Assembly: GCA_023300375.1 (NCBI GenBank)
Contig: JALZWO010000014.1
Coordinates: forward strand, 1-64,000
Reading direction: 5' to 3'
Source: Granulosicoccus sp.
Lineage (GTDB): Bacteria > Pseudomonadota > Gammaproteobacteria > Granulosicoccales > Granulosicoccaceae
Length of the DNA stretch: 64,000 nucleotides
Shown here: in pieces, positions 2,221 to 58,258 of the stretch
Position numbering within the stretch: position 1 is the stretch's first letter
Layout: every line of letters starts with the position of its first letter
Program-made: the position numbers and the translations under genes
Notes under the pieces: generated by a model
The model's database searches: none
The model's input: only the letters and a program-made list of their open reading frames with translations
Told to the model about the DNA's origin: nothing

Positions 2221-2370
2221 GGGCTAAATAAAGACCGTGTTTTTTTATAAAAGATGTTTACTGTTATTACTCAACAACAACTTTGTTGATAAGTTCGTAA
2301 AGTACTTATATTTCAATAGTTTATATGTAAAAAAGACCCTGTATAAACTGATTTACAAGGTTGCACAAGC

Positions 2371-2379
2371 TGTGGATAA
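2371..2379 (-). promoter_or_regulatory. DnaA box (perfect), left module
   Basis: TGTGGATAA is the exact complement of the DnaA box TTATCCACA. Confidence 0.88.
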
Positions 2380-2439
2380 TTCACCTTCACCATGTCCTCT
2401 GCAAAAGTGTTCTCTTGATGATCGGAAGTTATACGTGAG

Positions 2440-2448
2440 TTATCCACA
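2440..2448 (+). promoter_or_regulatory. DnaA box (perfect), left module
   Basis: TTATCCACA is an exact DnaA box, facing the box at 2371-2379. Confidence 0.88.
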
Positions 2449-2981
2449 GATATACACTATGAGAACGACTTATAACTTGAACCTAGATCAACAGGAATTA
2501 AAGCAGCCTTTGTAATATCGTAAATCGGCCATTTTGGAATACATTTACCTCTATCTCATTGACTTAAGAAAAGTGGCCGACCAATTGCAAAGTAACCTGC
2601 AAGCGCTGACCTCAAATCCTAGAATTCTTCTACTCGTCAATTTGTTAAGGCAACGTTGTTCAAATCCAAGTTAATTTAGAATACAGATTGTTTCTTGAGT
2701 GGCAGAACATATTAGTTAAGTCACTTTTATCTGCTTGAAAAAAATATTGAGGTTGTTGATGTGTTGGATCCAACCGCGCGCTTATTCGCCATAGGGACAA
2801 ACAGATATTGAACTTGTGCACCAAATTTAACAAGCTAATAAGAGAAGAGGTTTTTATACAAAAGATTATTACTACTATTACTGAACAATAACTCCGTGGA
2901 TAAGATGACTAAGAATTTTAAAATCAGTAGCTTGGAAGTGAAAAATGGCATGTATAAACGCCTACTTATTGCCTAATAAGC

Positions 2982-2990
2982 TGTGGATAA
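2982..2990 (-). promoter_or_regulatory. DnaA box (perfect), right module
   Basis: TGTGGATAA is the exact complement of the DnaA box. It is the counterpart of 2371-2379 at an offset of 611 bp. Confidence 0.88.
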
Positions 2991-3049
2991 ATTACAGCCG
3001 AAAGTGCTATTCGAATTTAATCCAACGGTTAAAGCGTTTAATACTAAAG

Positions 3050-3058
3050 TTATCCACA
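3050..3058 (+). promoter_or_regulatory. DnaA box (perfect), right module
   Basis: TTATCCACA is an exact DnaA box, the counterpart of 2440-2448 at an offset of 610 bp. It lies about 30 bp beyond the dnaA stop codon. Confidence 0.88.
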
Positions 3059-3091
3059 GCAGTAAATAGGCAAATTTTGAAGCGTTAACGC

Positions 3092-4498
3092 TCAACTGGA
3101 CAAGGTTCTGTGTAGGTTCTTGTAGTCTTCATTAACATTTTCGTCATTGTCCCGAAGCTCCACTACTTTTTTACAAGCATGCAATACGGTGGTGTGATCT
3201 CTCCCACCAAAAGCCCTACCGATCTCAGGAAGGCTTTTACTGGTCAATTCCTTGGCTAGCGCCATAGCTATTTGACGCGGTCTGGCCAGTGACCGTGCTC
3301 GACTTTTGCCTGACAAATCAGCCAATCTGATTTTGTAGTACTCGGCAACGGTTTTCTGAATATTCTCTATAGATACTGCACGCCCTTGCACTGCTAGTAG
3401 GTCAGCTAACGCTACGCGAGTGGTGTCCAAGTTAATTGGGTCTGCATTCAGTTGACTGTAAGCAATGACACGACGCAATGAGCCCTCGAGCTCTCGTACG
3501 TTGCTGCGAATCCGATTAGCGATAAAAAAGCTGACTTCAGAGGGCAGTTCGATGCCCATGGATTCGGCCTTGCTGTTGAGAATAGCAACCCGCATCTCTA
3601 GCTCAGGGGGCTCAATGGCCACTGATAATCCCCAGCCAAAGCGAGTTTTCAAACGTTCCTCTAATCCATTAATCTCCTTTGGGTACCGATCACACGTGAG
3701 GACAATTTGTTGTTCACCTTCGAACAAGGCATTAAAGTTGTGAAAAAATTCTTCTTGCGTTTGTTCTTTATTTGCAAAGAACTGAATGTCATCCACCAGC
3801 AGGGCGTCTAGGCCACGGTAAAATGCTTTGAAATCTGACATTTTGTTGTGTTGAAGTGCAGATACCATCTCTTGCACGTAGCGTTCAGAGTTGAGATACA
3901 TAACTCGAGCATCAGGTTTGTTGGCGATGATCTCATTACCGATTGCCTGCATCATATGGGTCTTACCCAAACCTGATGCACCGTAAATCAAATACGGATT
4001 GTACGCGGTGCCCGGGCTTGAGCCAATTTGCAGAGCAGCTGCCCGTCCTAGTTGATTGCTTTTTCCGGCGACGAGAGTTTTAAAGCTGAACTGAGGCTTG
4101 AGATTTGAATGTTGTAAGTTGGGCCTAACAGTTTGCGCAATTTGCGACAAGGCAGGCGCATTGCCTGGTCGGGTATGGTTTGGTTTTGCATCCAGCGATA
4201 GATTCGTGTTCTCTTCTTGTTCCTGTTGCGAGGAAGCTTCAACGCCCAAGAGATCAGAACCAATGATGAACATGATTTCGATCTTTTTGGGATGCGCTAG
4301 TTGGGTAATTATTTCCTGTATGCGGGCGAGAAAACTGCTCCGCACCGTGTCAAGTACGAATCGGTTTGGCGCAAGTATGCTCAACACGCCGTCAAGATAA
4401 TGAGCTTGTAATGGTCTGATCCAAGTGTTGAGCTGTTGATCAGACAGTTCGCCTTCTAGCTGCTGAAGACAACGATCCCAAAGTGATTCGCCTAACAA
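3092..4498 (-). CDS. dnaA: Chromosomal replication initiator DnaA
   Basis: DnaA binds DnaA boxes in oriC and, with ATP, melts the origin and loads helicase. The 468-residue product has domain I (MLGESLWDRCLQQLEGEL onward), a Gln/Glu/Asn-rich linker near 90-130, an AAA+ core with Walker A GASGLGKTH at about 173-181 and LLVDDIQFF (Walker B), and the C-terminal DNA-binding signature GRDHTTVLHACKKV near residue 432. The start is TTG at 4498-4496: its upstream GGAGACACGT gives a good ribosome-binding site, and the N-terminus lines up with other DnaA proteins. The gene points towards oriC. Confidence 0.97.
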   Translation of the reverse strand: MLGESLWDRCLQQLEGELSDQQLNTWIRPLQAHYLDGVLSILAPNRFVLDTVRSSFLARIQEIITQLAHPKKIEIMFIIGSDLLGVEASSQQEQEENTNLSLDAKPNHTRPGNAPALSQIAQTVRPNLQHSNLKPQFSFKTLVAGKSNQLGRAAALQIGSSPGTAYNPYLIYGASGLGKTHMMQAIGNEIIANKPDARVMYLNSERYVQEMVSALQHNKMSDFKAFYRGLDALLVDDIQFFANKEQTQEEFFHNFNALFEGEQQIVLTCDRYPKEINGLEERLKTRFGWGLSVAIEPPELEMRVAILNSKAESMGIELPSEVSFFIANRIRSNVRELEGSLRRVIAYSQLNADPINLDTTRVALADLLAVQGRAVSIENIQKTVAEYYKIRLADLSGKSRARSLARPRQIAMALAKELTSKSLPEIGRAFGGRDHTTVLHACKKVVELRDNDENVNEDYKNLHRTLSS

Positions 4499-55914: not shown

Positions 55915-58258
55915 TTCTGTGAATAAGCGATCCCGCACCGAATCGGGATCGCAATCTGTGTCTGACAAGCGATCTGTTGAAAGAGCGCTTGTTGTCGATT
56001 CCAGTCAATCTCTTGCCAGTGCAGCAGATCTGACCGAATCCTCGTCGTCCCTTCTTGGCGACCCACCAATGCAGTGCGACAGTAACAGTGTCCCACCGCC
56101 ACCTCTTGAGCAGCCAAAGTCCACCGTATCAGACGTGTTGCAGGCTTACTCGGCACTGCAGGACAAGCTCAGCAGCCGGTTTACCAGTGAACAACTAGCC
56201 GATGTGTCACGTGCCTTTGTGCTTGCCAGAGATGCCCATAGCACGCAAGTCAGGCAATCGGGTGACCCTTACATCACGCACCCCATAGCTGTTGCGGGCA
56301 TTGTGTTCGACATGGGTCTTGACCACTCCAGTGTCATGGCTGCACTGATGCACGATGTGCTTGAAGACACCCCGGTTACGCGCGATACCCTTGTGCAAGC
56401 CTTTGGCGAAGAGGTTACACATATCGTTGACGGTGTCAGCAAGCTCAATCATATGGAGTACCGTTCAAAAGAGGAGGCACAGGCTGAGAGCTTTGTGAAA
56501 ATGTTGCTGGCGATGGTCACAGACATTCGTGTTGTTGTGATTAAGTTGGGTGACCGCTTGCATAACATGCGTACCATTGGCGCTTGTAGCGCTGATAAGC
56601 AACGGCGAATAGGTAAAGAGACGCTTCAGGTTTACGCACCTATCGCCTCAAGGCTGGGCATGTATTTGATAAAAAGCGAGCTTGAGGTGCTGAGCTTTGC
56701 CGCTTGTTATCCCATGCGTAGTCGAGTGCTTGAGGCAACCGTTGCACGACTAACGCACCATAATCAGATTCTTGAACGAGTCATTGATCGGATTCAGGCA
56801 AGCCTGAGTGAAAAAGGTATCAATGCACGCGTGTACGGGCGTGAAAAACACCTGTACAGCTTGTACAAAAAAATGGAAAAAAAGCGCATCAGTGTGCAAC
56901 GCGTGTTCGACATGCTAGCTTTGCGCATACTGGTGGACGATGCCAACGACTGTTACCGAGCACTGGGTATTATTCATCAGTTGTTTCCTCCCATTTTTTC
57001 GCGCTTCAAAGATTACATAGCTCTGCCGAAACAAAACGGCTATCAGTCTTTGCATACGGTGTTGCAGCATGGCGCTGAAAACACCCCGCTAGAGGTGCAG
57101 ATTCGCACGCGCGATATGCATACCACCGCCGAGTCTGGGATAGCGGCACACTGGATTTACAAAAATGATTCCACTGGTGCAGACCAGTTATCAACACCGG
57201 TCTGGCTTGAGAAGCTGGTGGATGTTCAGCAATCAGCCACAGACTCAATGGAGTTTGTGGAGAGCGTCAAGATCGATCTTTTCCCAGAAGAGATCTACGT
57301 GTTCACTCCAAAGGGGCGCATTGTGCAGTTGCCGCGTAAGGCCACGCCGGTGGATTTCGCCTACGCTGTTCACTCTGAGGTTGGCGATCGATGTGTGTCA
57401 GCCAGAGTCGACATGCGTACTGTTTCGCTCAGCAGTCAGCTTGAGAATGGCCAGACTGTGGATATCATTACTGACACAAACATCGCCATTAGTCCTATGT
57501 GGCTGCACACGGTGGTTACAGCTAAAGCGAGAACAGCAATACGCCATTATTTACGGGCTATGGATCGAGGTGAGGCTGTAAGCTTCGGCAAGCGTCTGCT
57601 AAAGCGTGCGCTGGCGCGTCACGATATATTGCCTGAAGCCATAACCGAAAAAACGCACAACGCTTTGTTGGCCGAATGGCGTCTACTAGATAGCGATGCG
57701 CTGTACGCCGATATCGGTTTAGGTAATTATCTTCCCAGTCAGATAGCCCAACGATTGATCGATTTGCAAGAAGGCAATGAGGCCGCCTCGATCGCACTGC
57801 AACCCGTAAAAGAGGTCGCACCCATTGTGATTGATACGGCTAATAGCTCTGCCTTGTATATGGCCAGGTGCTGTCGCCCTATTCCTGATGACAATGTTCA
57901 AGGCTTTTTTACTCCGGGCAAGGGCGTAGCGGTGCATCGTGCAGGTTGTCGTAATATTCGCAAGTTTCGCCGACGGCCAAAGGAGTGGGTGGCTGTTGCT
58001 TGGGCGGCAGATATCGACGAGCAGTTTGAAGTTGTTCTGATTTGCCATCTGGTTCATCAACCAGGAGCGCTAGCGAGTGTCACCAGTACGATGTCATTAA
58101 TGAACGTCAACATCGAGCAACTGGATTTTGAGAACCGTAGTACAGATGACATTAACATCACATTTGTACTCTCGGTTGAAAATCGAAAGCAACTAGCGCG
58201 TATCGTACGGCGATTGCGTAATCTGCCTGCGGTCAGAAGTGTAAAGCGCGGCTCGTAG
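55886..58258 (+). CDS. spoT: (p)ppGpp synthetase/hydrolase SpoT
   Basis: SpoT makes and breaks down the alarmone (p)ppGpp in response to starvation. The open frame is 790 codons. An HD hydrolase domain has [13 protein letters not shown] and [10 protein letters not shown]; the synthetase domain has [19 protein letters not shown] and [15 protein letters not shown]; then come TGS ([19 protein letters not shown]), helical and ACT domains ([27 protein letters not shown]). Both catalytic halves look intact. The N-terminus has about 80 extra Ser/Gln-rich residues; the start is unresolved because ATG at 55886 lies inside rpoZ and has no ribosome-binding site. Confidence 0.95.

Follow-up and report, generated by a model that had tools for sequence, protein, structure and literature searches.

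Can a bacterium keep two adjacent origins of replication? A rare natural test of this question may be offered by a locus of a marine bacterium, in one metagenome assembly of the Granulosicoccus type, a 247-contig draft of 4.58 Mb. The window analysed here is the whole of a stretch of 64,000 nucleotides from that assembly (GCA_023300375.1, contig JALZWO010000014.1, positions 1 to 64,000). Named from order and sequence, the genes at its start are recF, in which the window begins, dnaN, then a gap, dnaA, and rpmH, rnpA and yidC. The dnaA-dnaN gap measures 871 bp (2221-3091) and holds two candidate oriC copies on the same strand, copy A proximal to dnaN and copy B proximal to dnaA. The cumulative GC skew climbs steadily rightward, and the contig end lies only 2.2 kb to the left of the locus. 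Four genes of the HU/IHF family are present, and a search for RNA families at the dnaA-dnaN locus found none.

Two modules in one intergenic gap

The preliminary description of this DNA proposed two copies of a DnaA-box module of roughly 200 bp, both between dnaA and dnaN. The coordinates confirm this placement and the two copies are real, but the true modules, as delimited by a profile, are larger (Table 1). An exact count agrees with the reported 35 identical positions of 44 between 2250-2293 and 2861-2904. The recurrence of elements at an offset of 610-611 bp also holds for the perfect TTATCCACA boxes, of which there are four, in the pairs 2371/2982 and 2440/3050. At an offset of 611 bp, 127 of the 275 positions over 2225-2499 are identical, against 77 at 609 and 82 at 612. 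The best local alignment of one half of the gap with the other scores 115, and the maximum among 1000 dinucleotide shuffles was 60. A looser scoring scheme discriminated less, with 4 of 1000 shuffles reaching the score of the gap self-alignment.

A second line of support comes from relatives, those with named records being Granulosicoccus and Granulosicoccaceae. The profile, built from the origins of relatives only, recovers exactly two modules in the window, on the same strand, with the E-values given in Table 1. The duplication is well supported. Both copies are located between dnaA and dnaN and are homologous to the dnaA-dnaN origins of relatives. The two modules are tandem, same-strand copies of a predicted oriC of the genus type.

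Table 1. Genes, origin copies and predicted sites at the locus (positions in the window)
Feature	Position	Strand	Remarks
dnaN (beta clamp), intact, 370 aa	1108..2220	-	ORF; 95% aa identity to sister L032
oriC copy A, dnaN-proximal	2226..2461	-	Orthologue of the sister's single origin; profile E 1.9e-28
A DnaA-trios TAATAACAGTAAACA	2255..2269	-	3/5 match TA[AG]
A DnaA box 3 TTATCAACA	2284..2292	-	1 mismatch
A IHF-like site TAAACTATTGAAA	2311..2323	-	1 mismatch to YAANNNNTTGATW; several relatives perfect here
A weak DnaA box TTATACAGG	2338..2346	-	TTATACA word; conserved in genus alignment
A DnaA box 2 TTATCCACA	2371..2379	-	Read dnaA-to-dnaN
A DnaA box 1 TGTGGATAA	2440..2448	-	Read dnaA-to-dnaN
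Spacer of ~260 bp between dnaN remnant and copy A	2462..2721	.	Without detectable dnaN/dnaA homology
Decayed copy, first ~110 bp of dnaN	2722..2833	-	Directly behind B, where dnaN follows in single-origin genomes
oriC copy B, dnaA-proximal	2843..3059	-	Profile E 7.4e-22
B DnaA-trios TAATAGTAGTAATAATCT	2863..2880	-	First five all TA[AG]; sole strong BUS match of the window
B DnaA box 3 TTATCCACG	2895..2903	-	1 mismatch
B IHF-like site CAAGCTACTGATT	2922..2934	-	1 mismatch; by eye against consensus
B weak DnaA box TTATACATG	2949..2957	-
B DnaA box 2 TTATCCACA	2982..2990	-	Read dnaA-to-dnaN
B DnaA box 1 TGTGGATAA	3050..3058	-	Read dnaA-to-dnaN
dnaA, intact, single	3092..4498	-	ORF

Read from dnaA towards dnaN, A and B follow one plan. 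This begins with box 1 (reverse), box 2 (forward), a weak TTATACA box and an IHF-like site, and continues with box 3, a 14-bp spacer, DnaA-trios and AT-rich DNA. The word TGTATAAAC singled out in the preliminary description is the complement of the conserved weak DnaA box, and the segment that matches around 2250 and 2861 corresponds to the DnaA-trios and box 3. Counting boxes with at most one mismatch, A has three and B has three plus one extra. Apart from the four gap boxes, a single TTATNCACA match occurs in the 64-kb window, at 55918. A perfect IHF consensus and a perfect box 3 are absent from A and from B alike. Each copy constitutes a complete predicted DnaA platform.

The arrangement usual in the genus is a dnaA-dnaN gap of ~240-270 bp with one box set: TGTGGATAA, then TTATCCACA ~47 bp on, a third box ~99 bp later, and trios. 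The nearest sister (L032/L003; 95% and 92% amino-acid identity in dnaN and dnaA) has a gap of 262 bp with one module. One module is also what the origin profile finds in every other genus locus examined, three with longer gaps included. Second duplications had been suspected in these three and were rejected; the gaps measure 714 bp (L049), 353 bp (L041) and 343 bp (L052), and the extra DNA lies upstream of box 1. The preliminary description had named relatives lacking one module as a possible refutation, and this check came out positive, all relatives examined having one. The duplication itself is not refuted by this; the second copy is instead a lineage-specific addition, not a conserved architecture.

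Some variation in the box set is worth recording. The distance from box 1 to box 2 is 69 bp in A and 68 bp in both B and the sister, against the genus norm of ~47 bp. Box 2 in the window copies and the sister has apparently shifted to the position of a neighbouring degenerate box. A distance of 69 bp is also seen in L053, through a different change. The IHF consensus YAANNNNTTGATW, perfect or near-perfect, is found at the same place, between box 2 and box 3, in many Granulosicoccaceae origins (L034-L055).

The segment from box 3 to the trios can be compared with the published signature of the basal origin unwinding system (BUS), which comprises a DnaA box, a spacer of up to 16 bp and at least three trios (PMC8287927). 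The published spacer lengths peak at 10-13 bp, 16 bp being the search maximum, and the trio rule requires NAN only (PMC8287927). Allowing at most two mismatches in the box, the segments of both copies satisfy these rules, with a spacer of 14 bp in each and a run of TA[AG] trios that leads into AT-rich DNA. The locus differs from the published signature in having two units ~610 bp apart in one intergenic region, with the trios of A degenerate. A stricter variant of the rules, termed strong BUS, requires at least 4 of 5 trios to be TA[AG]. In 1.32 Mb of DNA from relatives, searched on both strands, 20 of the 21 strong matches fall within the dnaA-dnaN gap, so the signature is specific; in the 64-kb window, copy B is the only match. 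For the Granulosicoccus oriC, the locus provides a clear comparative view in which a BUS can be recognised.

Proposed function of the two copies

If the copies work as the known system does, boxes 1 and 2 together with the weak box would be the loading sites of DnaA, and the DNA would be bent by IHF. DnaA would arrive at box 3, extend onto the trios next to it and open up the AT-rich stretch that lies towards dnaN. In many Granulosicoccaceae origins the unwinding side, box and IHF site come in the same order as in E. coli oriC. We infer the binding of DnaA and IHF, the unwinding and the firing copy from these predicted sites. Both copies can most likely bind DnaA and either could be opened. 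The unwinding signature is stronger in B, and A sits next to dnaN, the ancestral position.

The interpretation favoured here, with rather more confidence than doubt, is that of a duplicated oriC, in which two tandem origins would be DnaA-competent and the second copy would be kept under selection. A more demanding version is advanced tentatively, as possible rather than probable. It would have one bacterium stably maintain two complete, independently competent origins separated by ~600 bp. Purifying selection would act on each, and in every cell cycle one, the other or both could fire; such a pair would be a natural redundancy of oriC.

The main rival is a division of labour, in which a single copy is the origin and the other a DnaA-binding regulatory cluster, for titration, timing or control of dnaN/dnaA transcription, in a bipartite arrangement. 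At the level of sequence, an origin and a DnaA-binding regulatory site would look alike for either copy. The trios of the copies are unequal, 3/5 and degenerate in A and 5/5 and perfect in B, while both have perfect boxes 1 and 2, as the rival would have it. Bipartite origins are moreover known, those of B. subtilis and H. pylori being so named (PMC4403523). The segment of box 3, spacer and trios is nevertheless kept in both copies, and a pure titration site would not need it. The sister shares the A-type trio segment and has no other in its single origin, so A-type trios apparently suffice there. A division of labour is considered rather doubtful.

Descent and retention of the copies

Copy A and the origin of sister L032 are identical at 189 of 231 positions, the last ~60 bp being nearly identical. 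Copy B matches L032 at 171 of 242 positions and shares ~70% identity with A and with the sister alike; A and B are about 66% identical. In the tree, A, B and the sister form a clade with support of 100/100, within which A groups with the sister (98/95) and B falls just outside. Diagnostic sites are split, B being like the sister at 26 and like A at 20.

A decayed copy of the start of dnaN directly behind B indicates that a segment of the origin together with the 5′ part of dnaN was duplicated. The duplicated segment would have run from just before DnaA box 1, across the origin, into the start of dnaN. The call of this remnant rests on an anchored extension, whose score of 99 was reached by none of 1000 shuffles, the highest of these being 54. 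An unanchored comparison was borderline, with 24 of 500 codon-shuffled genes scoring equally high, and a dnaN profile at the DNA level missed the fragment. The alignment is loose, ~51% identical ungapped where the window's own dnaN and that of the sister agree. Within the genus, the best match of the remnant is the window's own dnaN, and at diagnostic sites it resembles the sister's dnaN seven times and the window's own five times.

A simple duplication unit would hold ~370 bp of dnaN. Tested towards the junction with A (~370 bp), homology to dnaN past ~110 bp did not rise above shuffles. As only ~110 bp is detectable, ~260 bp is left unexplained. The sequence upstream of box 1 of A does not match the dnaA-side flank. 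A phage or plasmid insertion was rejected as the source of this spacer, since a search of 2462-2721 against genus relatives, phages and plasmids gave no matches. A remnant of the dnaA 3′ end in the spacer was also rejected, with no signal at any register tested.

The divergence of B, which exceeds that of the species pair, and its branching outside both A and the sister might suggest that B and the dnaN fragment were acquired from a relative, through recombination or horizontal transfer, instead of arising by tandem duplication in place. Such a transfer is judged unlikely. The derived box 1 to box 2 distance of 68-69 bp is common to A, B and the sister and to few other relatives, the three form the fully supported clade, and the remnant best matches the window's own dnaN over 110 bp.

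Whether B is maintained was judged from the positions that 95% or more of relatives conserve. Of 30 such positions, B keeps 26, A 24 and the sister 25; the dnaN remnant keeps 28 of 52. The difference between B and the remnant is significant (Fisher p 0.002), the remnant being a rough and imprecise neutral yardstick of ~110 bp with a loose alignment. A and B agree in 25 of 30 conserved columns against 60 of 133 variable columns (p 1e-4). The 40 bp at the trios of B are 95% identical to those of a relative, G016, whose dnaN is only 79% identical in amino acids. The DnaA elements of B were thus kept while the co-duplicated dnaN fragment decayed, and B has therefore probably been retained by selection. 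On these comparisons, copy B probably stays under selection.

The preliminary description had instead argued for selection on geometry, an argument that finds partial support. Two distances are exactly the same in A, in B and in the sister, 87 bp from box 2 to box 3 and 14 bp from box 3 to the trios. Spacing is copied along with the sequence in any duplication that has seen few indels, however, so equal distances alone prove little, and the retained positions are the better evidence.

Could one copy, B or A, be a non-functional relic of the duplication that is now disappearing, as a second copy apparently did from the sister lineage? Bootstrap support (98/95) favours a duplication before the split from the sister, which implies loss there, although a later duplication remains compatible with the AU test (p 0.245). 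Two copies are retained in no relative examined, and one mutation is visible in box 3 of B. The relic explanation is nevertheless quite unlikely. B keeps the conserved positions at least as well as A and significantly better than the fragment duplicated with it. The branch of B in the tree (0.48) is no longer than the path to A (about 0.6) and near that of the sister (about 0.4), which also argues against a fast-decaying relic. An assembly chimera of two strains' origins might be suspected in so fragmented a draft, but it is highly improbable, as copies only ~66% identical, a decayed dnaN fragment between them and intact, single dnaA and dnaN genes on either side are unlike a strain chimera.

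Comparison with known double origins

The pair of A and B recalls the bipartite origins of B. subtilis and H. pylori in having two DnaA-box clusters near dnaA. In those bacteria dnaA lies between the two sub-regions, which complement each other and are not duplicates.

A single origin per bacterial chromosome is the norm, and, according to a review by Gao, evidence that one chromosome uses two functional origins was lacking (PMC4403523). The natural double origins it covers are large duplications, predicted pairs and bipartite sites (PMC4403523). In the literature searched, a limited library, no natural micro-duplicated oriC of the present kind was found, only large-scale cases. The locus is an isolated variant, in one metagenome assembly, of a known kind.

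In Acidaminococcus fermentans, a putative double oriC was described by Gao in 2015 (PMC4403523). It likewise consists of adjacent predicted origins in the dnaA region ascribed to duplication, but there dnaA is also duplicated and each origin is split by a dnaA (PMC4403523). Here there is a single dnaA.

The DU1 duplication of Mycobacterium bovis BCG Pasteur gives two oriC copies on one chromosome, and is, as here, a natural tandem duplication (PMC2448323). The BCG unit is ~30 kb and its copies are described as identical (PMC4403523), whereas the present unit is ~0.6 kb, duplicates no complete gene and has diverged strongly with its elements preserved. What sets the locus apart is this combination of a small unit, a single dnaA, strong divergence with preserved elements and the location of both copies in the dnaA-dnaN gap. 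With its origin elements kept and the start of dnaN decayed, a small duplication of this sort would serve as an experiment of nature on whether origins can be redundant and on what makes one sufficient.
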